Assembly (NCBI GenBank): GCA_000310025.1
Contig: FN649744.1
Span: 2,248,422 to 2,312,421, forward strand
DNA from: Ectocarpus siliculosus
Taxonomy: Eukaryota > Sar > Phaeophyceae > Ectocarpales > Ectocarpaceae
Reading direction: 5' to 3'
DNA length: 64,000 nt
Below are positions 826-51,122 of the stretch, piece by piece. Position 1 is the first letter of the stretch. Each line of letters begins with the position of its first letter. Position numbers and translations under genes: made by a program. The notes beneath the pieces were generated by a model. The model saw only the letters and a list, made by a program, of their open reading frames with translations. It ran no database searches and was not told the origin of the DNA.

Positions 826-3800
826 GCCCCAACAGGAGAATGCTCTTGGCACGGCATCAACCAACCACAGCAGCAGGAGAACAACGTTCTTGGGGAACGT
901 TCCGAGAATTTTCCGCCGCCACCGGTCGAGAAGGCCCATTTTTTTTCTCCACCACGTATCTCGCGCTGTGTATTTACGACGAGTACAGCTGTTCCTGTGG
1001 CGGTGCCTATTGTCATTGCCAAGTTTTTTTCATTCGTCGTTTTTACGTGTGTGTGCATCTTGTTGCGGAGGAGAATGGCAGCGTTGAAAGGCGTAACGCA
1101 TCGTACTCTGGCCAGCTTTTAGCCAATTAGAGTTCTAGTGTTTTTATTAATGTGACACCCGCACCGCCGCTGCTGGCTGAGAGAGCCAACATGTTCGGGG
1201 CGGTAAGGCGTACGGGAGTCGGAAAATGGCATAACGCCGACCTGTATTTTCGTCGTAATAAGAACGATGCGCATTGTTTGGAAGTGTTTCTAGCACGTGT
1301 GCATGTGTGAGGTATTTTTCGTGTGTGTGTGTGAGGATTCGTTGTCAAAGCGGCGCTCGTAAAGGGAGGGTTCCGGTAGGGACTGACGACCAGAGGAGCG
1401 CTTGTTTCGTGATTCCCTGGCGTCGGTGGAAGTCTTCTCGACGCAAAAGCAGGCGCGTACGATCCGTTTCTGTATCGTGGAAGTCGCTATTTACTGCAAG
1501 GATGTTCGGCTTTCGCTAATTGCCAACAGAGAGTTTTTTTTATCGAAAGGGGGAAAGAGTAGTAACCAATGCAAAGGAAACAGTGAAAAGCGGCAACTGA
1601 GACAGAACCAGAGATTCATTGCACGCGTCCACGAGATGGCCAGATCTGGCCGCCGGAGCTGGTGGTTTTGTCACCGAAAAGGTTGGGCTAGACCAGCCGA
1701 CGAATATCGTACTTATTCTTCTACATTGTTTTGTTTCTTTTTCTCTCCAAAACGGCTGCGGTTCACACAACCGGAATAGTGGCCTTTTCCTTGAGAAACC
1801 GGGCACTCGATGGAGAAAGACATCCAACCACATTACACAGCGATGGCGTGCTGTGTGCCATGTGGCCGACCACAGGAGGGAAGATGGAACACGCGAGAAA
1901 AATCCACACAGTGAAATCCTGCGGCAGCGTAACGAACACATGTGTCAGTGTGAAACGGGGGTCGATCGCGCACATATCCCGCCGTGAACGACCAAGGCTA
2001 CAGCAGGGGCTGTAGCACCCATACGAGCTAAAGTGCCACCTGTTTCGTGGTGTCTTCGCGGTTACTGTGCGTGTTTCTCTAGTCGAAATGTGTGGTGTGG
2101 GCCCTAACGGAAATATATGCATGTGGTGGAACGACCCTTACTTTAGGTCACAGGTGGTGGAGTGATGTGCAATCATGACGCATCGTAAATCTCTTCCACA
2201 TGAAGGCTTCCATAGTTCGGATATTCTCGGGGCAGGCATTGTTTTGTTCGTCTCCATCTGTTGGTGGGATCCCACTGAAGTAAAACCATGTGTTTCGCCC
2301 CGCGCTGCCGTGACGGAGAGGGTTGGTTCTTGTGCCGTATCGGAAGTCGGTTAGATTGAGTTGGACAGAAACGGACACAAATTGTTCCCGTTCGACCCGA
2401 ATCGCTCCCCCTCCGATAAGAAAGTGCGCCTCACCGGCTCGCAGACTCTTCATCTGCAACTCTCCAAACAGCCTGTGTCGTCCCTTGTACGTGCCTGTCG
2501 TGCGAGGGGGTGCAGGAACATCACTCGATTTTGAAACCACCAATCACTCTCTCGAAGGGACGAAACAGGTGCGGTGCACGTGTGCTTTGCCGACTGCAGT
2601 ATCTGGAACATTCAAACTTAAAAAAATACAGCTTTGGCCACCATCGACACCCGAAATGGGACTCTTCTCTCCGCCATGATATTGGACCTGCTATATGCAT
2701 AATCTATGGGATACCAAGGGGTTGCTTTAGAGGCCACAGAGAGTGACACGAAACCGATAGGATGCACCGTAGCGTCGGGCTGGGAGAATTTCCGAAGTCG
2801 AGTAAGTGCTGCGTGCTTGCAGACTAGAGTCCTGCACCGGGGGGGGTGGAGTCGATGTCACCCCCCTTGAGAGTTTGGCAGCGGGCGTCGAGGTTAGATG
2901 TTCTTTGCGTGTTGATGACCGAAACAAGCACCCACCACAGAGCGGCGCACTACCGGGCAGACCAAAATCGTCTTGTGTTTTTTGTACTTCCTTCGAATGC
3001 TCGCATCGATCGATGCAGTCATCTTCGGGCTGCCATCTCATGGCTCCTCGGTGATCTCTGTAGCTCAAACCAGACGCACGGGCGAGCGCACGGGGCCACC
3101 AGTCTCACCTCAATCGCTCACATCGAGCTTCACGTTTGGCACAGGGCCGGCAATACATGAAACACGAGACCCTTGAAACAAGTTATTTGCTCGAAAAATC
3201 GAACCCGATTGCTTGTTACGTTTCGCCTTGCGGCATGCAGGACCTGTGAGAATACCTTGCGATACGTTTCATGGATTCTATTGGGTACGGTTGTCTGGCA
3301 GCTCCGTGTTCTACGCAGAACTGTGTCTTGGTGGTGCGGTATTAGACCTCATGGCATTGCGAGATGGCTTCCTTTCCGGCAGCGACAGCTGCCCGACAAG
3401 ACACAACTTCCATGACCGGGCCCCGCGCTTGGCACACTCCTCTCTCGTTCGCACTCTCTAGCAATAACCACATCTGAACATACGAGCCAAGAGCTTCCGA
3501 AACATACGTGTGGTGCACTCAAGTTCGGTTTGCGATACCGTTTTTTGCACTTACTTCGCTCTGCGAAACAGCTGCCAGGCATCAAGAAGGACGAGAAACA
3601 GCTATTCGGTTTCGGCGTCAAAGCATCGCTTCCCCCGCAGAAGAGAAAGGCGATACTGGTCGGTGCAATCACCACCGCTCTGTTCGGGAGAAGAGGCGGC
3701 TGTAGCATGGATTCACTCCCGGTGTCATCAGCTGGTGGACAAGGTGCTGGACGTATACTAATTACATGACCGATGGTGTGAATCGCAACCACTCGGTTTA

Positions 3801-35279: not shown

Positions 35280-36938
35280 TCAAACACCGGAATGTGCTAG
35301 TGATTCGGCGACTAAATGTAACGCCACATACCCAGTCGCGAACGGTCGTTCTCCTAGAGGCCACCCAGCCTCGCGCCCAACGGTCGATCGGGGGCGTTTC
35401 AGGTTCAGGGCTCGGAAACAAAGTCCCCGCCATCTGATCTTGAGGCGAGCAATGGTCGATGTTTGATGGGACGAGCGCATCGTCATGACCGTTGTCGTAT
35501 CTGCAATGTTTAAGGGGGGAAATCGTGAGCGCTCACACATTGTGGAAAATACATGCATGCCACAGTAGTATTTCTCGTACCGCTCGGTCGACAAGTAAAT
35601 GCTAGAGTCGTATTCGTACACTCAAGCCATTATACCGGTGGTTCGTCGAAGTGCACAGATGCAGTCTCTTTGAAAGCTGAGGAGAAACGACGGCACGTTG
35701 TCTTGAGTCGAAACCATGGGGGACACAAGAAGATCAGCAAGCCAGGTGGCCCAGAACCCTCCCAGATGCTGTCGGAGACAACACCAACCCCACCTCATCG
35801 AGGCTACGGCAGCAATTCTCACTGCAAATTCTGCGCTCATGCAACGCGCACCTTATGTCGACGCTTGCGTATATTTGAGTGATGTCGTTTGTGACTAAAA
35901 CCGCCGTTTGGTCGTAGATAATCTCGTCTAGCTGACGGCCTCTGATGAACTCGAAAACTCCCGCTAGCGCGGCTCCGATTTGTTCAGAGACGGCCAATTC
36001 ATGCTCCCTCTTATCCTGTCACAGCAGGGACGACGGTGACGTTACTTCAGCCTGACTATCGTCAGAACTGCCTAGGAGTGTCGCTTAACAAACACGTTCG
36101 AGGAAACAATCGAACAACGTGGGAGAGTTGAATTTGAAGCGCCTGTACGTCGTGGTGTGTCCGACCGCTTGCCATCGGGCCACATTTCGATTACAGCCAT
36201 ACATCAGAAACCAAAATTGTAGTCAAGAGAGGATCCCGCGAGACATACTACATTAGAGGTGTCCCTGTTCAGTGCCAGTTGAATAGCGCCGATTCCCTCA
36301 ATATGTAGTGCCGGTGTTTTCGGCGGGCACACACTGAAGTTTCCAAGTCTTTCTCAATACATTCAATAGTGCCGGTCCGGTACTTGTAGAAGCATGGACA
36401 CCGGTAAATTTTCTGGGCACAACCGGCACTAAGTAGGGATCAGCAATATTGGTTCTCACATAATTGTTACTCGGGATGATGGCATCATCCAAACCGATGG
36501 CAGTGATCTAAGGCATCACGAGTCCCCCCGTCCTTGCACTTTTTCTGTGCATATAAACACAACACAAGAATCTTGAGTCGGAGTCTGGACCGCTACCAAA
36601 ATAATAACCAATGGGCTACAATACGATGTCCAAGCATCATGCGTGCCATGACAGCTTGAGCGCATCCGATATTGCCAGTACTCCTGTTTTTCTACCATAG
36701 AGAGGTCAATCGCAAAATTGTATCACGCCAGGAAATTATTCAACGAACACTGGAGCGCTGAAAGATATGCACGATTTGCGTAGAAGGCGCATGTGCGAGT
36801 AGACCAGTGTCAGTCATGTTCCGATGTATAGTCGTCCCAGCAACTTACCTGCAGAAACTGAAGTCCCTGGTCAACAAACTCTTCTTCTGGTGGCGGTGGA
36901 ATGGGGGCCGATTGCTTTCCCGCCGGAGATTTGCCCAT
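35280..36938 (-). CDS. Small uncharacterised protein, three exons
   Basis: Minus-strand exons are 36938-36849, 36015-35852 and 35433-35280, giving 135 residues with phases consistent. Exon 1 starts MGKSPAGKQSAPIPPPPEEE and ends in a consensus donor (cag|gtaagt). Exon 2 begins DKREHELAVSEQIGAALAG, continues VFEFIRGRQLDEIIYDQ and looks like a compact helical domain. It ends with a phase-2 donor (ag|gtgcgc). Exon 3 (WRGLCFRALNLKRPR and on to a stop at 35280) fits the phase but is the least certain; a donor-like GTATGT within it could lead to further exons in the low-complexity DNA below. I do not recognise the family. No signal peptide or membrane segment is seen. The start codon lies 266 bp from the divergent WW-domain gene. 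Confidence 0.55.
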
Positions 36939-37204: not shown

Positions 37205-40200
37205 ATGCAGTACGAGGATTCGAAGGGTGATTTGTGGGTCGAAGAGCAGGATGACGATGGCGACGTCTACTTCGTTAACGCGGATACGATGGTAAGTGTA
37301 CTGTTGTGGTCGTGTGTGCAAGGATCCGGGGCATGTTTCCAGACTATTACAGAGCCATAGCCTAGTGCCTACGTGCCTACCACAGAGTCTACACCAGCTG
37401 GTGTGTCAGAATCAAGGTCCATAGACACAGGCTTGTTCTCAAATCCGGGTGGCTCTGGTTGACGTCACAGGAAACGGCTTGGGAGCTACCACCTTCGGCC
37501 AGAGAGATCGAAGCACCATACGCAGCAGACGCATCAGCATCATCGGCGCTAGTACCGTTGCAAGACTCATCCGCGAGTTGGACGGAAGTTTTCGACGAGT
37601 CCACCAACAGTAAATACTACTTCAACACCTTGACCCAGGTGATACGCATGCCAAACGGCTTCGACGTGAGCCACACGATCAAAGGAGGTCCCTTCAGTCA
37701 GGCGCTACTTATGTTCCTCCGCACGGTCGTCTCACTTTTTTTGTCTACTGTACTTGTGCATGTATTAGGGTATTTTTCTAGGCAGTCTACTCTTTGTTGC
37801 GCACGACAGACCGAACAGTATTCATCACCATCTTTGCCATAATTCTTGTACTACTCCGTACGAACACGAACTTTCATAGATCGTAGGCCATGCGAGAAGC
37901 GGCAAAGAACAAATGGGCTACTGCCGCAACCATCAGCACGTCACCTTTTGAGCTGAAAGTCCTGAAGATATCGTCGAATTGACTGCACAGATTGGATGAC
38001 GGCTTGTTCCTTACTGCATAGGAAAGTTCGTGGGATCTCGGGACGGACGAGCGGCTGGCATCGGGAATCTACCATCCGTCAGGCGGAGACGACGATGCAT
38101 TGATCGGACCTTACAGCAGCAGCCAAACTCTGGAGGCGGAATCTTCAATTTCTTCTAGCTGGCGAGACGAGGTGAAGAACCCGGGTAGCGTTCTACTCTA
38201 ATAATCCATTTCAAGTTCTCATTATTTGAATTATTGCACCGGGTCGGTGCATGTGAGGGCAAAACTTCCCTAGCGTCTCCACCCGAAGAGTTGGGGTGCT
38301 GAAACGAACAGACTGGCACGGAGAATGGGCGCGTGTACCTCGATTGAAATTTGGGTATCGGTATGGGGAGGTTGTTTTCTGCGCGTGCAGCCTTTAGGTG
38401 CAGTTTTTAGGCAAACACGTGCTGCCCTCTGCACACACCCTTCCCATTCTCACTCTCTTCCTGACACTACGGCTTTCCCTCCCTACATATAGGTACTGGT
38501 GGGTTTTCAAGTGCCGCAGGAGGTGTCTGAGGCTGTCGGCAGAGCGGGGTCGGCCCACATTTGGCCTAGAACGGTTGACGGGCGGCCTTCACGCCTGGAG
38601 CGCTGGGACGTCCTGAAGGCAAGATCTGAATATAGTTTCAGTACGTAACCTATAGACAATTCTTTCACTTGTTTTGATTGCTTTGCCGGGGCAAAACTCC
38701 CTGGAACACCGCTTTGCGGCCGAGGAATCTGGCCAATGCCACGGGTACACGAGGGGGGGGACATGAAAAGTAACCACCCGATCAAAATTGCGACGCACTG
38801 ACGCCTCACGATACCGTTAAACCCAGCCCAACTCGTACACGGCCGAGTGACGCACCACCAGGTATTGCGCGCGCACGGTTCATTTCGACTTGACCCCTTT
38901 CGCCCAAGGAATATGTATGTAGTGCGCGCATCGGAATATAGCATGAACCAGCTGAGCCTAGTGACCTTGTGTGCGGCAATGTTTTGCAACCAACCTACTC
39001 TACTGAGCGGATACAAGCTGGGCCAGCCAAGAAGCTCACTTTCGTTGTTTCGCGTCTCACTCTGCCAATTCCACGAGTTTAAGCTTGAAATTTTGTGGCT
39101 ACACTAAGAAGACAATCGAGGATGCGCTGGTGCCAGAATTTTTCGAATCTGAGTTGATTTGGGTATTGAATGCTCAATTGGCGGTGTAGGCGGGGATGGT
39201 TCCGGTACTGAATTCAGTATAAAAAACGTTACAGATTAAGCCGAAAATTGGTGTGCACTTACCTGAGAGCATTGCGAGTACAATGATGGTAGTTACAAGG
39301 CTCAGGTAATCTTCCATCAAAAGTTATGGCCTCGTAAAAGATCCTATACAACACCCAACATACTGAGCGAAAGTGAGGGTATTGCGATTTCCGAGCCGGT
39401 TTTTACGAACTAGAACCTGAAATTTTGATATGTGATTGGAAACGGTCTTACAAATGCCCCCCGAAGGAGGTGCGGTTTTTTTTTGTTTTTGTTAAGCCAC
39501 AAAAAAGAACTATATTGGGATTCGTAGTTATTTAGTATACCAAAAAAAAACAAAAAAAAACGCACCTCCTTCGGGGGGCATTTGTAAGACCGGTTCCAAT
39601 CACATATCAAATTTTCAGGTTCTAGTTCGTAAAAACCGGCTCGGAAATCGCTTCTAACCATTGTATTGGCTTCTTGGCTGGCCCAGCTTGTAGCGCCATG
39701 TAATCTGCAACCCGCTAGAAAGCTAGAAGACAGTACAATAGAAATCTTTAAAAGCGTAGAGGTTGACCTGGTGTATTGAAAAGCTTGCTTCCATACTGTC
39801 GGCGAGATTTTGCACGAAAGAAACACGCACCAAATATCACTTTTTCAGCCAGGCGTCGGATCCTTACCGCGAACACTTCAGCACCGGAGAGGCGTGGCGC
39901 TTGGAACACCCCGAGTTCGAGCCCAAGCTCTGCTTCTACGCCTTCGACACCGCGGTGGAACACGTGGAGGTAAGGCAGTCACGGAGCCGGACGCTCTCAA
40001 CATACCCAACTTGTATTCCTGCCTCGCCCCCCACCGGAGCCAAATCGAATCATTTCTGGAACACCCCGGCAGTGCGTTGTTGACTGATGTACAGTACGTA
40101 CGGCTAAGTTGCGCGGCACTCTAGATCTGGCCTCATAACCGAAACGTTTTGGAACCGAAGAGAAGGCACACGAACCGCGTTCTTCAGGAATTCGCTACAG

Positions 40201-43200
40201 CAACACACACCCTTGTCGAGATTGCACTGACAAAGACATACTTCGGTGGCACGTCGCGCAGAGGTACTGGGTGGAAGAAGCCGAGGCCCCCTTCCGTTGC
40301 CGGCTGCAGAGGGATGGGCTCAAGTTCTCCCGTGACATCGCAACGTGGGAAGCTCGAGCCCCTGCAAAGAAAAATGACAACGACAAGGGCAACAGCGGAG
40401 TAGGTAGCCCGGGGGGAGACCTGGACGGGGACGAACACTGGGGCGGCGAAGGCGTTGGAGGCGACGGAAGAGGTGGCGGCGTGGGCGGCGACGGCGGGGG
40501 CGGCAACGGCGGGGGCGATGGCGCCGGCTTCTTTGCGTTCCCTCTTGTGGTGCACAACTCTCACGCTCATCACGTGGTACGGGAAAATGCAGAGTCTACC
40601 GTGACCTGGGGGTAACCTTCGGGTTTGGTCGTCGCACGTGGTATCCTTCTGTTGTGTCATCGGGAAACGACACGACATCTTGCGTCGCGCATGCCATCAA
40701 GCCCAACGCAGGGCAACAATGGGGGCGTCCGTGCGTGCTTGTTCAATACCGTGCTTGTTATTCTCCACAGAAGCATCAGGCACACGAAATACAGTGCGTG
40801 CATCGTGTGAGACGTGCCGACCGAATCGAAAAAAATCCGGGCACATTATGTCGTGGCAACGAACACGTACCACACCCTAGTCGGTTACACACCGACAAAG
40901 CGCACGCGACGCGTCCGATTGACAGACTTTCCCCCGAATGTTTTCGGCTGAACTGTGCGAATCTATGCATGGGGGGGGGCATTGGCGTTACTTCTCGGAG
41001 GTTATTCCGAGCTCGGCAAGGCTATGGGCCCCGAACATCGGCCGTGTGTGATTGAAACAGCCGTCGAATTGCACCATTTGTTCCTTGACTCTTTCGCGCC
41101 GATGGGCTGTGCGAAACGGCGATCACCGCAGGACTGGACGTCGGGCCCCGACCGCTACCAGATCACGCAAGACTCCGAGCCGGAATGGGGGTGGACCCGG
41201 CTGTTCACCTTCTTCGCCTACGCGGCCTCCAAGTACCACGTGCTGGAGACCACGCAGGCTCCGCTTGCGCAGAAGGCCAGTCTTTCGAAGACAAAATTAC
41301 TATGTGGTTGCTTTGGCCTCTGTAGTTTATTTCGGTGTTGGTGTTGTTGTTCGAAATGTGATAATGATTTGATTATGTAGATACTGTAGTCAGTTTGTTG
41401 CGTCTGCTATGCACACGCGAACCCATTGGGTCTCTGCCAAACCGTCTCACGCCCGCGGTCTCCCACCAAAGTGTTGGATGAGGGCCCGATGATTTTAAGC
41501 CAACATAGAGTAAAGCTCGCGCGTCCGTCTGGATTCCAACGCGACAGACCGCCGTAATGTGAAGAGAGCATCGAAAATCAGGAATTTCGCACATGATTGC
41601 TCCATGTCATTGATATCATGAGAGCACCCCAAGTTGGAGCGCCACCATCAGCGTATTGCTTCATGCATGACGGTAGACTATGCCTCTGGCTCGTAAACCC
41701 ATGGAGTGGCCGCTCCCTCCCACAAAAAAAGCCTTCTCCATTCCTTGTGCGGCAGATTGTGAAGGGAAACTTTCTGACTCCGGAACCGGGCTGGAAGTGC
41801 GTGCTGGCCTTCTTCGCATTCAATGACATGGTTCCCGGGAGCAACAGGTGAACCATTCGTAGGCGGTATTCGTAGGTTCTTCAAAGAACCTTGTGTGGTT
41901 ACTTCACCGAGTGCATTTGGCCCCTGTCCCCCACCCCTTGGGGACATTCCGTAGCCGATCGGTGCAGGTGAGATGATAGTCCAGACCTCACTTTCTCGGG
42001 TGACCGATTGCGTTTATCGCCCCGTTCCATCCCAGACTGCCTCTATCCTGTGTGAAGACACGGAAGTGACAACTTAAATCACCAGACTGGTCGTAAATTG
42101 GCATATCAACAAGACTGCCAACAATATCACGTCCTCTGCCCGACCCTACCCGCTTCTTTTTGCACGAGAAACAGCCAAATCAATGGCAAACGAATAGGTG
42201 GAATTGAACTACAATAGGGAATTCATTCTTTCGACCGGTGCTACATATCAGCAAAGGCTGACAACACAATACGTGGTCTAGGGACCCACTTCCCCTTATT
42301 GTTGTGCGGGAGGGGCAGCCAAAACAAGAGAATTCGAGATGATGAAAATGAAATCAAATCTCTTCCAATATCGCTCAATTCACTCTTCCAACAGGTACTA
42401 CATCGAGGAGAAGGACGAGCCTCACTTGCGGACTCGCATCGGCATGGAAGCATCCTGCCGGTGGGACGCCAGGCATAGCTTTGCCGCATTCGACGTGCCC
42501 GTGCCGGGCTCCTGCGCACTCGACGTCCACTACACCATCCGCAGCACGGACAGCCTCAACCCTTACCCCGAACAGTGCCGGATATCTCTGAAGGCAAGAT
42601 TGAAATGCTAGTGGGGGGGCCGGCGCACTGATGTTTTCACTCTTGAACCCGGTAGATGCAGCTTGATTCTTGGGGATGGACGCAAATTCGTCAACGGCCC
42701 CGTTTTTGTGTATGAAGGGAGAGGTAAGGACGGTTGATGTGCCTTAACGTTTGGCGAATGTGGCTTGACTCACATTGATTGTCCTTCCTACCCAAGAAAA
42801 GCGGGACGAGTGGGAATCGTCTGGGGTGAATAAAACGAGTTCTGCGTGCGGGGTGATATATTCGATGGGTAGGAAGTTGCAACGAATGTCTGTGCGCGTG
42901 GAGTTAGTTGGAGGTGAGCCTTGGTGTTTTCGGCGGTGTGTTCGCTCAGGTGGCTGCTGACCTTAAAACCGTCAGTGTACATGTCCCGGAGCCTAACAAG
43001 CTTGGAAAAAATATGCGGCGCACCGAAATGTTTATGGAACCGCCAAACCTTGTAGGCACGCACCTCACGGCCTTGTGTTCAGCCACCGCGAAACGTCGCT
43101 TAACTACCCCGACAACTTCGTCATGTGCCCCTAAACGCCGTTTTCACAACCCTGACACAGGACCCGTGGGGTTCGTGGGAGCAGAAGTTCAGGTTCTATG

Positions 43201-43313
43201 CCTTCCCCGCGGAGCAAGTCTTGCTCTCCCCCGAGCTAGACTCGGACACGCAAGACGTTCTCAGCGGATCGCAGTCAAGATCTGCGGGAGACGAATCGGG
43301 CCCTCACGGCTGA
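37205..43313 (+). CDS. Tandem WW-domain protein with repeated FxAF/RYxxEE module
   Basis: The exon model is 37205-37291, 37471-37638, 38022-38171, 38493-38618, 39853-39969, 40262-40600, 41132-41275, 41756-41847, 42395-42593 and 43161-43313, about 524 residues. WW1 (W11, YF, W33; DLWVEEQDDDGDVYFVN then ETAWELPP) and WW2 (W66, KYYFN, W89) are each split by an intron. WW domains bind Pro-rich ligands. From about residue 178 a module recurs: LCFYAF...RYWVEEAEAP; LFTFFAY...KYHVLETTQAP; VLAFFAF...RYYIEEKDEP; and a final KFRFYAF. Each is preceded by a Trp-containing segment such as DPWGSWE or PEPGWK. A Gly/Asp linker interrupts the first module. Exons 4 and 9 end in AAG|GCAAGA (GC-AG introns). The donors of exon 6 (40600, or 40576) and exon 7 (41275, GC-type, or a missed exon before 41756) are uncertain. 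ATG 37205 overlaps a good acceptor, so an upstream first exon is possible. No known family beyond WW was recognised for the module. Confidence 0.7.
39001..39692. mobile_element. Foldback / nested inverted-repeat element in WW gene intron 4
   Basis: An inner inverted repeat has arms 39384-39474 and 39561-39651. They are 91 bp each with about two mismatches, both carrying aaatgccccccgaagg or its complement, and enclose an 86-nt AT-rich loop. An outer perfect 24-bp inverted pair lies at 39012-39035 and 39669-39692 (core ctgggccagccaagaag). A 10-bp inverted pair (ctcactttcg / cgaaagtgag) lies at 39035-39044 and 39368-39377. No coding sequence or clear target duplication is visible. This fits a MITE or foldback transposon. 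Confidence 0.8.
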
Positions 43314-47000: not shown

Positions 47001-50000
47001 TGCCTTTACGGTTAAACCATTTACCCCCCCCCCCCCAAAGGACGGAGACTTTTTCCCCCGGGACCGATCCCCCGAGGGCCATCCTTCCTTTCTATTTTTC
47101 CAAAGGGGGTCCAAAAATGGCTTCCCCAAGTTTTTTTTCTTAACCCCCTCCCTTCCCCCCTTTTTAAACCCCTTTTTTTCCCCCGATACAGCTACCGCCC
47201 CTTCCCCCTTTTTTCATGCCCCAAAAATTCCCCTGGAGGTACCCCCCTTGCTTTTTTCCCCTTCATTCAAAAACTCTTTCCCCATGTTCTTTTTTGCTCC
47301 CGAGGACCCGGGAAGTTTTCGCTTTTATTTTTCCTGCCTTGGTTTTCCCCAAAAGGGGTTTCGGTACCCCCCTTTTTTTAAAAAAATTTTTCCCCAAAAA
47401 AAAATTTAAAACCCCCCCGAAAATCCCCCNNNNNNNNNNNNNNNNNNNNNNNNNNNNNNNNNNNNNNNNNNNNNNNNNNNNNNNNNNNNNNNNNNNNNNN
47501 NNNNNNNNNNNNNNNNNNNNNNNNNNNNNGGCAGTGGCAGAGGGCGCCGGCACCAAAGTTAGCGTCCATGGCGCGGGAAGCGCTCAAGGGAGAGAGGGTG
47601 TCGGTGAACGTTCGCACGCCCGGATGCTATCGGAGTCATGGGTTTGATGGGTCGGGGTTAGTCGTTTGGCGGTGTGGATCGTTCGCGAGGTCGAGCTCCC
47701 CGGGTCGCCGGGTCAGTGTTGTGGCAGCATCGGCATTGTGGATGTCGGGACAGTGGTAGTGAAGCTGGTGAGGTGGGTTTTATGGATAGAGGGAGAGTTT
47801 TTTAAGCGGATGATGTAATAGTGTGGTGATGATGTTGGGGGGAAAGAGTGTGGAGAAGGGAAGGGGAGTTGTGAGTGGTTGTAGGGGGGGGGGGGGGGGG
47901 GGCGTACTCTTATGTTTTGCATGCCTTAGCGGTTAGACCATTGACCACGCGTCCTCGAGAGGACGGAGCATTGTTCCCACAGGACCGATCACCGATGGCC
48001 AATCGTTCCTTCCTACTTTGCCAAAGGTGGCTCAAAAATGTCGTCCCTAGTCTATCTATCCTAACCGCATCCCTTCCCGCCTTTTCAAACCACTTCCTAC
48101 TCCCCAGTACAGCTACCGTCCTCTCCTCTCTATTCCATGCCTCAAACATCTCCCTGTACGTACCTCCCTTGCATTTTCCCCGTTCATCTAGAGACACGTT
48201 CCACATGTGCTTTTTGCGTGCCGTGGACAGCGGAAGTTTCGGCTATAACTTTACCTGCACTGCTCTACCCAAAACGTGCATCAGGTACGCCCCTGTTTTA
48301 AAAAGAAATATCACCAAGACAAAAATGTAAACACACGCAGAAAATCACACCACCAACGCGCTAACATTGATAGCCGAAGCTGACGACTCCATGAATTCGT
48401 AAGCCTGGTCGACACCAGTCAAGTAGCACGTGAACACACACCTGGAGGACGCTGGTCAATCTTTTTTCGATGTCGACCTTTGAGGAGATGCATCCATGGA
48501 TGAAGTTGCCGTCCAGAATTACCTTGGGTAGGTCCGTCGAGCAACAAAAGAGAGGGGGGGAAGCACGTAATTGGTGCACACATATGCATGCGCACCCGCA
48601 TACACACGGACTCGAGTGCAAGGTAGCGGCCTTCGTAAACGTGTGCAGCTTTCTTCGGTTGCTACCGTTTCTGTCTTTGATCCGGAAAATAGGGTAGTCT
48701 CCCCCATGCCGCCCCCTCACGGGGTCCCAGTTAATGGCATTTAGAAGTATTTTGTGTTTTCAGCCGCACTGAGACTGACGTCCTTTCATTGGTCAGCCGG
48801 TTGTAGCGCGGGCGGTCGATGCTAACAATAAAAAATACACACGACACGAAACGCAGAAGGCAGATCAACAGATGAGCAACCTGACACTGCAACACACGTG
48901 CCACGGGGCGATCAAAAACAGCCAACGGCAGGTGTAAGCAGACTTGTGGTGTGCAGCTTATGCCCAACTGTGTTCCGTTCAGCACTGCGCGAAGGAGAGT
49001 GCAAGACACGGCACGGTTGACATGGCAACAACAACAACACCTTGAGTGGACCTGACACGCTTTTCAGATAAAGCGTAGCCGGGTGGCACATGACAAATGC
49101 ACGGCCCCACACGCACCTGGCCAGGTTAAGGGGGGGGCGAGGGGACTTCCAGGATGGTAGCAGAGGACTCCTCGCACTCAGACTCATCCGCCACGAATGG
49201 CAGAATCATCTCTATGATTTCTTCGAAAAACAATCCAGAACGTTACCGCTAAGGCTTCGACGCGCACCCTTCGACTGCTTGCTGCGGTGTTATCTCGAAC
49301 GGTGTAGTCTTTTCTGTGATCATTGTTTGCTAAAAGTGTGATCGGGACACTCCCTCCACACACTCAGACTGGCCTTCGCGAATGGCAGACCTATCGCTAA
49401 AAGATATAGTGTGTGTTGTGTTGGTTCGGTGTCGTGGTTGACAAGTAGGCTCCCAACGACAGACGACACCGTTCTGCACACACGAAGAGAACGCGTACTG
49501 CTGCGTACATGCCAGTGGGCGCCTTGCCATCCCTTTTCCGCGGTTGTCGTTTGAATCATCCGCCCGGTACACGCGGTAGACGCTACCACATAGGACAGCG
49601 AAACATGCGTTTACATGTCTACAATATAATGGCGCGTACAATTCGGGGAGTTCAGGCTGACGGTATCGGAGAAGAAGACGGAGACGCTCCTGATGCGCGC
49701 AAAGGAGAAGCAGACAACAACACCACCGCCCCCCCCGCCACCACCGCTGATCATCGAGGTGGCAGGGCAGGGGTATGCCCAGACGACTGAATACCGGTAC
49801 CTAGGTGGCCTCGTCAACGAACATGGCAGCCTCACAGAGATCAAATACCCGAGCAGAGCAGCGTGGGCATGCGTCAGGAGATATGGCCAGGAGCTCTTCG
49901 ACAGGCCGAAAGCACCGTTCCGACTGAAGACTCGCCTGCTCCAGGCCGAGGCGATGGAGGCACTGCTGTACGGCAGCATGACGTGGGCCCCACGTCAAGA

Positions 50001-51122
50001 CCAATACCGGACGATGCGGACGATACACCACCGACTGCTCCAGCGAGTTATCGGTTACCAACGCAAGAAGGGCACCTACCGGCAGATTTCCTACGCCCAG
50101 ACCCTGAAGAGGGTAGGGTGCCAGAGCATGGAAACCACTATCCGGCAACGGCGCCTGCTGTTCGCGGGAGCACTGGCAAGGCAGCCAGACGGACGACTCC
50201 CGAAACGGGTGATGCTTGGCGAACCGGTGGGGGGGGAGGGCCCGGGCAGGGGGAAACCGGAGCAAAACTGGCAGATGTGCCTGAAGGACGACCTGAAGAT
50301 GTTCGAAGCAGTGCACGGATCTACGGACGCCGAACCATGCTTCTTCGGAGTCCCGGAAACAACTTGGATGGAAGCAGCGAAGGTGGACCGGGGGGTGTTG
50401 TGGCATACGGGGGTACTGCAGGGAGCTAAGAGGTTCATGGCCTCCTGGCACAAGAAGGAAGAGGAGGATAGCCGACAACGAGCGCTCAAACGAAACAAGA
50501 AGCCCGACAACAACACGGACACGGCAACAACCACGGGGGTGGGAGGGGTACAGCAGGCGGAAGAGACGGCGAGGAAAGGCAGGAAACGCGAAGAGGCGGA
50601 CCGAGTGGCGCGAAACACCGTGCCGAACTCCTTGCTAGACTCATCCCCCCCCCCCCCCGGCACTGCACCATTGCACCAACCCCCCGCGAGCGATGACGTG
50701 CGTGGGCTGTCGCAAGTGGCCCGCTTTGTCTTGTGTTGTTTTGTGTCGTTCTGTTTGTTTGTTTGTTGTCTGTCGCTACGGCGTGTGTCTTTCTCTGTCT
50801 GTGTCTTTCTCCGTCTCTTTCCCTTCTCTCCATCTGCTCTCTTCCTTTTCTTTTTCCTCGTCTTTTTCTTTCTCCTTGTCCTTTTTCTGTCTTTTTCCAA
50901 TCTAGGGTTACCTCGCATAGCGTGTAGAGGCGAGGGGAGTGGCCTAGACTATCTGTCGTTGACTTTTATTGGCTTGCGGACCCTTCGGATCCATTTTATT
51001 TTCGTATACCTTTTTTGGGTAAGTTAGCCTGTGACCATGGGAATTGATCCAGTCAAGTGTTGGACTAGTACGGACAGAAGAAGGTACTGGGCAGAGAGAA
51101 CGGAACGGTTTTGGTTGTGAAG

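Follow-up and report, generated by a model that had tools for sequence, protein, structure and literature searches.

We analyzed a window of 64,000 nucleotides from the brown alga Ectocarpus siliculosus (assembly GCA_000310025.1, contig FN649744.1), in which positions 37205 to 43313 of the plus strand read as one ten-exon gene. With the predicted splicing, the frame runs through 516 codons without a stop or a frame-shift. The model uses nine AG acceptors, six GT donors and three GC donors with consistent phases; its splice choices are inferred, the three GC donors having been picked for keeping the frame open. The exons measure 87 to 315 nt, and eight of the nine introns lie in phase 0, the exception being intron 8. 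GC content over all ten exons was 0.61, 0.49 and 0.73 at codon positions 1, 2 and 3, respectively. At position 3 it reached 0.92 in exon 7, 0.85 in exon 5 and 0.82 in exon 9 and was lowest in exons 2 and 3 (0.57 to 0.58). Since the exonic position-3 value stands against 0.49 at position 2 and 0.45 to 0.55 across the nine introns, the frame looks coding. The start is uncertain. The ATG at 37205 is possible, and the sequence ATGCAG|TACGAG, which follows a pyrimidine tract, provides an alternative acceptor at 37211 that could turn exon 1 into an internal exon, with another exon upstream. On the minus strand, at about 36849 to 36938, the sequence MGKSPAGKQSAPIPPPPEEEFVDQGLQFLQ followed by GTAAGT may be the first exon of a gene that runs divergently; the two genes may therefore share a promoter region. 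Elsewhere in the window, ten other long open reading frames (ORFs) gave no Pfam match at an E value of 0.01, and a search against Rfam returned nothing within the window. The same Pfam threshold yielded no match for a 464-codon open stretch at 49630 to 51023, which by eye resembles the closing part of a reverse transcriptase from a retroelement.

The first three exons encode two WW domains. Exon 1 (37205 to 37291, phase 0) carries the possible start codon and the first part of WW1, ending in NADTM. Exon 2 (37471 to 37638, phase 0) carries the end of WW1 (ETAWELPP) and the first part of WW2, ending in NTLTQ. Exon 3 (38022 to 38171) completes WW2 (ESSWDLG) and continues into a Ser/Asp-rich linker that extends to SSSWRDE. 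As the original prediction had read from the letters, there are two WW domains upstream of the repeat: the Pfam profile PF00397 matched two stretches of the spliced protein with 57.8 bits, compared to a cut-off of 26.9 (E = 1.1e-15). Before splicing, the two regions reach 25.1 and 21.2 bits, under the cut-off. The Trp residues are spaced 22 and 23 apart. Both domains are split by a phase-0 intron at one site (TM|ETAW in intron 1 and TQ|ESSW in intron 2), a correspondence that the original prediction did not mention. Compared to the WW domain of PF00397, WW2 of this protein ends in WDLG and is missing the closing Pro, and the ligand-contact position of both domains lacks the His typical of PPxY binders. 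A glycosyl-hydrolase profile overlaps the second WW domain of the spliced protein with an E value of 0.07, below its own Pfam cut-off. The genome as a whole contains 110 WW matches at an E value of 0.1 or less. Some are clustered within a few kilobases (C15:1688048-1696493, C3:5116099-5119490 and C16:7176376-7183447), and these clusters may be tandem arrays of WW domains that are divided among exons. In the same 189-Mb genome we counted 880 candidates for EsV-1-7 cysteine repeats (PF19114), whose expansion marks brown algae; 150 of these were scored, and the listed ones were all over the cut-off.

Downstream of the linker, an aromatic unit recurs through exons 5 to 10. We compared seven segments, numbered m1 to m7, the first of which, m1, is a doubtful module in exon 4 (38493 to 38618, reading VLVGFQVP..SRLERWDVLK, with a GC donor after the Lys codon). 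Exon 5 (39853 to 39969) holds the first strand of m2 (KLCFYAF). Exon 6 (40262 to 40576) continues m2 in its first part (40262 to 40339, RYWVEEAEAPFRCRLQRDGLKFSRDI), passes through a Gly/Asp-rich stretch that separates m2 from m3 (40340 to 40519) and ends with the m3 first strand (40520 to 40576, GAGFFAFPLVVHNSHAHHV). A 15-nt tandem repeat of 2.7 copies, at 40477 to 40517, encodes a portion of this Gly-rich stretch. Exon 7 (41132 to 41275) contributes the second strand of m3 (41132 to 41182, DRYQITQDSEP) and then m4 (41183 to 41275, EWGWTRLFTFFAYAASKYHVLETTQAPLAQK), with a GC donor after the Lys codon. Exon 8 (41756 to 41847), which ends in phase 2, carries the first strand of m5 (..GWKCVLAFFAFNDMVPGSN), and exon 9 (42395 to 42593) holds the remainder of m5 (42395 to 42455, (R)YYIEEKDEPHLRTRIGMEAS) followed by m6 (42456 to 42593, CRWDARHSFAAFDVPVPGS and then HYTIR and QCRISLK), again with a GC donor after the Lys codon. 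In exon 10 (43161 to 43313), the m7 first strand (DPWGSWEQKFRFYAFPAEQV) is followed by a Ser/Asp-rich tail and the stop codon TGA.

Aligned in this register, m2 to m7 present six first strands of the FxAF type (CFYAF, GFFAF, TFFAY, AFFAF, SFAAF and RFYAF) and five second strands of the Yx[VI] type (RYWVEE, RYQITQ, KYHVLE, RYYIEE and HYTIRS), m7 having the first strand only. A Trp lead is present in m4 to m7. The P..R.R[IL] tail can be read clearly in m2 and m5, and in part in m4 and m6. The module thus described is about 40 residues long and consists of an aromatic lead, an F-x-AF strand, a loop, a Y-x-[VI] strand and a Pro, with R-x-R-[IL] in the clearest copies. That a unit recurs agrees with the original prediction, which had counted three to four copies; the number and the register had to be revised to the six first and five second strands given here. 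What had been described as a second aromatic strand within a copy (GFFAF or SFAAF) is actually the first strand of the following module.

For each of the 21 pairs that the seven segments form, similarity was tested against 2,000 shuffled versions of one partner, and the six best pairs were rerun with 40,000 shuffles each. These six were far from the shuffles, with p of about 0.003 or less: shuffles that equaled or exceeded the observed score numbered 0 for m2-m5, 10 for m4-m7, 16 for m4-m5, 32 for m3-m5, 76 for m5-m6 and 129 for m2-m3, of 40,000 in each case. The other 15 of the 21 pairs gave p of 0.03 or more. The six supported pairs join m2 to m7 in one connected set, under a shuffling procedure that preserves composition. 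Splice-site choice enters the pair scores, because m2, m3 and m5 were joined across introns. All six pairs that involve m1 were at chance (p of 0.21 to 0.94, 2,000 shuffles), so that exon 4, as a copy of the module, is without sequence support.

Profiles built with one module left out were scanned over the six frames of the window. They brought back m5 with 10.8 and 8.9 bits, m7 with 9.3 bits, the exon-6 half of m3 with 9.8 bits and part of m2 with 5.4 bits; m4, m6 and m1 were not retrieved among the best 12 rows listed. The noise level in these scans was set by a non-gene ORF (window positions 860 to 973, minus strand) that scored 5.2 to 10.1 bits. Retrieval at 5 to 11 bits overlaps this noise and is barely above it. 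Ranked against 3,413 ORFs, the gene's own exons included, the best-related exons came 2nd to 18th and others as far down as 270th or beyond the first 300. Two loci that had been preselected for likeness scored 56 and 50 against m6, compared to 36 for the best other module. From these comparisons we concluded that the repeat is real for the connected set of m2 to m7, but old and diverged.

Intron anatomy recurs along with the modules, as had been predicted. Introns 4, 7 and 9 each follow a Lys codon at the end of a module, in phase 0, and begin with a GC donor. Exons 4 and 9, whose LK ends and GC donors the original prediction had pointed out, share the context GAAG|GCAAGA; exon 7, which ends in QK and has the context GAAG|GCCAGT, is a third case beyond the two first noticed. 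The DP-type starts that were said to come next hold for exon 10 (DP) and, in the form ASDP, for exon 5; exon 8, which follows the GC donor of exon 7, begins with IVK. Introns 5, 6 and 8 interrupt the loop that connects the first strand to the second, at places that vary in detail (introns 5 and 6 in phase 0, intron 8 in phase 2), and intron 3 matches no recurring place in the gene. The shared site of the two WW domains belongs with these recurring intron positions. GC donors usually make up about 1% of introns, and their presence in three of the nine introns, at like places, therefore suggests copying along with the modules. Exons 7 and 8 also share 71% DNA identity over 38 nt, although, by the tool's own warning, families of two such short copies often arise by chance. 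Taken together, module likeness and repeated intron anatomy would fit exon-wise duplication. The tandem duplication proposed in the original prediction is supported by the six shuffle-tested pairs and the recurring introns, and weakly by the identity of exons 7 and 8; exon 4 drops out of it.

We searched for relatives of the module in several collections. Neither the spliced protein nor its repeat halves had a Pfam match for the repeat at an E value of 10, and natural module sequence had no match in PHROGs, NCBIfam or PADLOC. Against PDB sequences, the natural repeat reached E values of 0.7 and 0.75 at best. In these five libraries, the domain that the original prediction could not name remains without a name. 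Plasmids contained no match to the repeat, and phages a single one (E = 4), under a capsid gene. Scans seeded with short exact or near-exact peptides gave 2, 42 and 107 seed matches in IMG/VR and 10 and 79 in GTDB contigs, none of them confirmed; natural sequence was used in the scans with 107 and 10 matches and invented sequence in the other three. Searches with tblastn of contigs from phages, plasmids, viruses and prokaryotes produced nothing credible. The literature searched, including the available parts of PMC3563603, PMC12853789, PMC11378527, PMC10762896 and PMC13413365, held no description of the module.

Within its own 189-Mb genome, five protein queries returned this gene and six places elsewhere with E values of 0.46 to 3.6. 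These places were taken as chance matches. Four of them were inspected by ORF listing or alignment, and the match at one proved to be a repetitive ORF; the other two were judged by the module profile, which gave 3.4 bits for one and nothing for the other. The module profile also found nothing convincing in eight 8-kb stretches located downstream of calpain matches (a scan that left out the place C19:161806) or in 12 more of the same length, each of which begins at a different one of the 110 WW matches. The best match, LRFYAYP with 10.7 bits, lacks the module context. The genome therefore appears to hold no convincing second copy of the module, a statement that covers close copies only, because divergence at the level of m2 and m5 would not reach an E value of 10; the query of exons 5 to 7, for instance, did not retrieve exon 9. 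Novelty of the module is provisional, and so is the lineage specificity that the original prediction had raised as a possibility, because this genome is the sole eukaryotic one that the searches covered.

Exon 9 folded alone gave a model made entirely of strands at low confidence (mean pLDDT 63.6, pTM 0.38). A fold with a five-row alignment of window exons was worse (pLDDT 45.9). The original description of the domain as β-rich is thus weakly supported. Foldseek with the low-confidence model found nothing below an E value of 0.77 in PDB, and among viral models (BFVD) the best structural match had an E value of 0.073. VIA-align Z was at most 6.0, in a range that the tool calls common. No fold, propeller and solenoid included, can be named from models of this confidence.

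Judged from its sequence, the gene most likely encodes a WW adaptor with a lineage-restricted β-repeat scaffold. On balance we think it probable, if only somewhat so, that this is one intron-rich gene with two WW domains, a Ser-rich linker and about six modules, that the array grew by exon duplication and that the protein forms an all-β adaptor scaffold. According to this model, exons inside the gene would have duplicated repeatedly, so that the module array grew with the introns copied alongside. Short proline-rich or phospho-Ser/Thr peptides of one partner would be the ligands of the WW domains. The modules, packed next to each other, would make up a single all-β scaffold, perhaps a propeller or a β-solenoid, which would hold or present a second partner. 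A bolder version, which we put forward tentatively and regard as less likely than not, is that an unnamed β-repeat domain originated in brown algae (or stramenopiles) through successive exon duplications within the gene of a WW adaptor, that GC-donor introns were copied at the module ends and that the domain folds into a novel repeat scaffold, closed or open. Should the module prove truly undescribed, there would be a new domain family to define, together with a small and clear example of how a repeat protein is made by copying exons together with introns, in a multicellular lineage whose evolution was separate from that of plants and animals; brown-alga biologists would also gain a candidate signaling adaptor. 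If orthologues show a known fold, the gene would be an ordinary diverged WW adaptor.

The alternative that survives best is that the module is a diverged form of a described eukaryotic β-repeat or β-sandwich family, lying outside the libraries searched or below their sensitivity. The profile libraries consisted of Pfam, PHROGs, NCBIfam, PADLOC and PDB sequences only, and invented module sequences did match a Pfam family, DUF7023 (PF22894), with E values of 2.9e-6 when tripled, 8.2e-5 when doubled and 0.022 and 0.22 when single; of six tripled shuffles, none did as well as the tripled invented sequence, the best reaching 8.5e-5. However, shuffles reached unrelated families at E values of up to 8.5e-5, and invented sequences also gave stray matches in PHROGs (0.0032) and NCBIfam (2.4e-4). 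The lack of any Pfam match for the natural repeat at an E value of 10 likewise speaks against a known family. DUF7023 is absent from the results for profile consensuses of the real modules and for tripled real m5, and in the genome it has three matches with E values of 1.3 to 2.6, none in the window. Only the invented tripled sequence scored above 27 bits (27.6 bits), and no natural sequence did. DUF7023 was provisionally set aside, as neither natural sequence nor a real profile consensus lists it. We regard a diverged known family in general as a minority prospect that deserves to be kept in mind. DUF5648 (PF18885), whose short Trp- and aromatic-containing units we assume to be like the module, was grazed by one of three invented sequences (E = 0.019). 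It was also set aside: no match exceeded 25 bits, and none appeared at an E value of 10 in the genome or the spliced protein. The part of PMC12853789 available describes DUF5648 as a three-bladed β-alpha propeller and a proposed glycan binder.

We consider it unlikely that the array is genuine only in part, with a short core of duplicated modules (m2, m5 and possibly m3, m4 and m7) inside an otherwise non-repetitive domain and the rest being aromatic strands alike in composition. The 15 module pairs with p of 0.03 or more would be expected from such a protein, as would the failure of leave-one-out profiles, which run near the noise, to recover m4 and m6. Yet the six supported pairs tie all of m2, m3, m4, m5, m6 and m7 together against shuffles that keep composition, and recurring intron places do not depend on composition at all.

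A wrong gene model, or a decaying pseudogene in which the likeness stems from one old duplication in non-functional DNA, seems very unlikely to us. The exon model was predicted from sequence and includes three GC donors, and a repetitive element at 39012 to 39692 (no strand assigned) occupies 681 of the 1,234 bases of intron 4. Against this stand the 516 codons without a stop or frame-shift and the high position-3 GC in most module exons. The intron 4 element itself lies outside the protein; it is bounded by perfect terminal inverted repeats of 24 bp and contains, further in, another inverted repeat of 110 nt (95%), and its first 142 nt occur at 40 places in the genome, its own included, with 72 to 100% identity.

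That the gene is tied to the membrane-anchored calpain architecture, a calpain core with WW, is hardly credible: an architecture ending in WW is reported for E. siliculosus and oomycetes in the accessible part of PMC10762896, and a C-terminal WW in Albugo and Phytophthora in that of PMC3563603, but none of the 17 listed genome matches to the calpain core PF00648 lies in the window, the nearest listed one (C19:2506961) is about 195 kb past the window end on the other strand, and the eight stretches downstream of calpain matches held no module.

Among the published systems considered, two come closest to the proposed WW adaptor. Like the membrane-anchored calpains of types 3 and 4, as presented in the accessible part of PMC10762896, the window gene encodes a stramenopile WW protein; it differs from them in that none of the 17 genome matches listed for the CysPc core (PF00648) falls in the window. 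The modules downstream of the WW pair are themselves not WW. No LRR, ROC or COR domain was found in the window protein, for which Pfam lists WW and one sub-threshold match. As far as the available text of PMC11378527 goes, the exon-shuffled LRR-ROCO genes of brown algae have repeat units that were copied with their introns inside the gene, and the window gene resembles them in what appears to be intron-accompanied repeat copying within one brown-algal gene. According to the same part of that source, each LRR-ROCO repeat is one 72-bp phase-2 exon, whereas the modules described here span exon borders in exons of 87 to 315 nt, and the introns of the gene are in phase 0 in eight of nine cases rather than in the phase 2 of the LRR-ROCO repeats.
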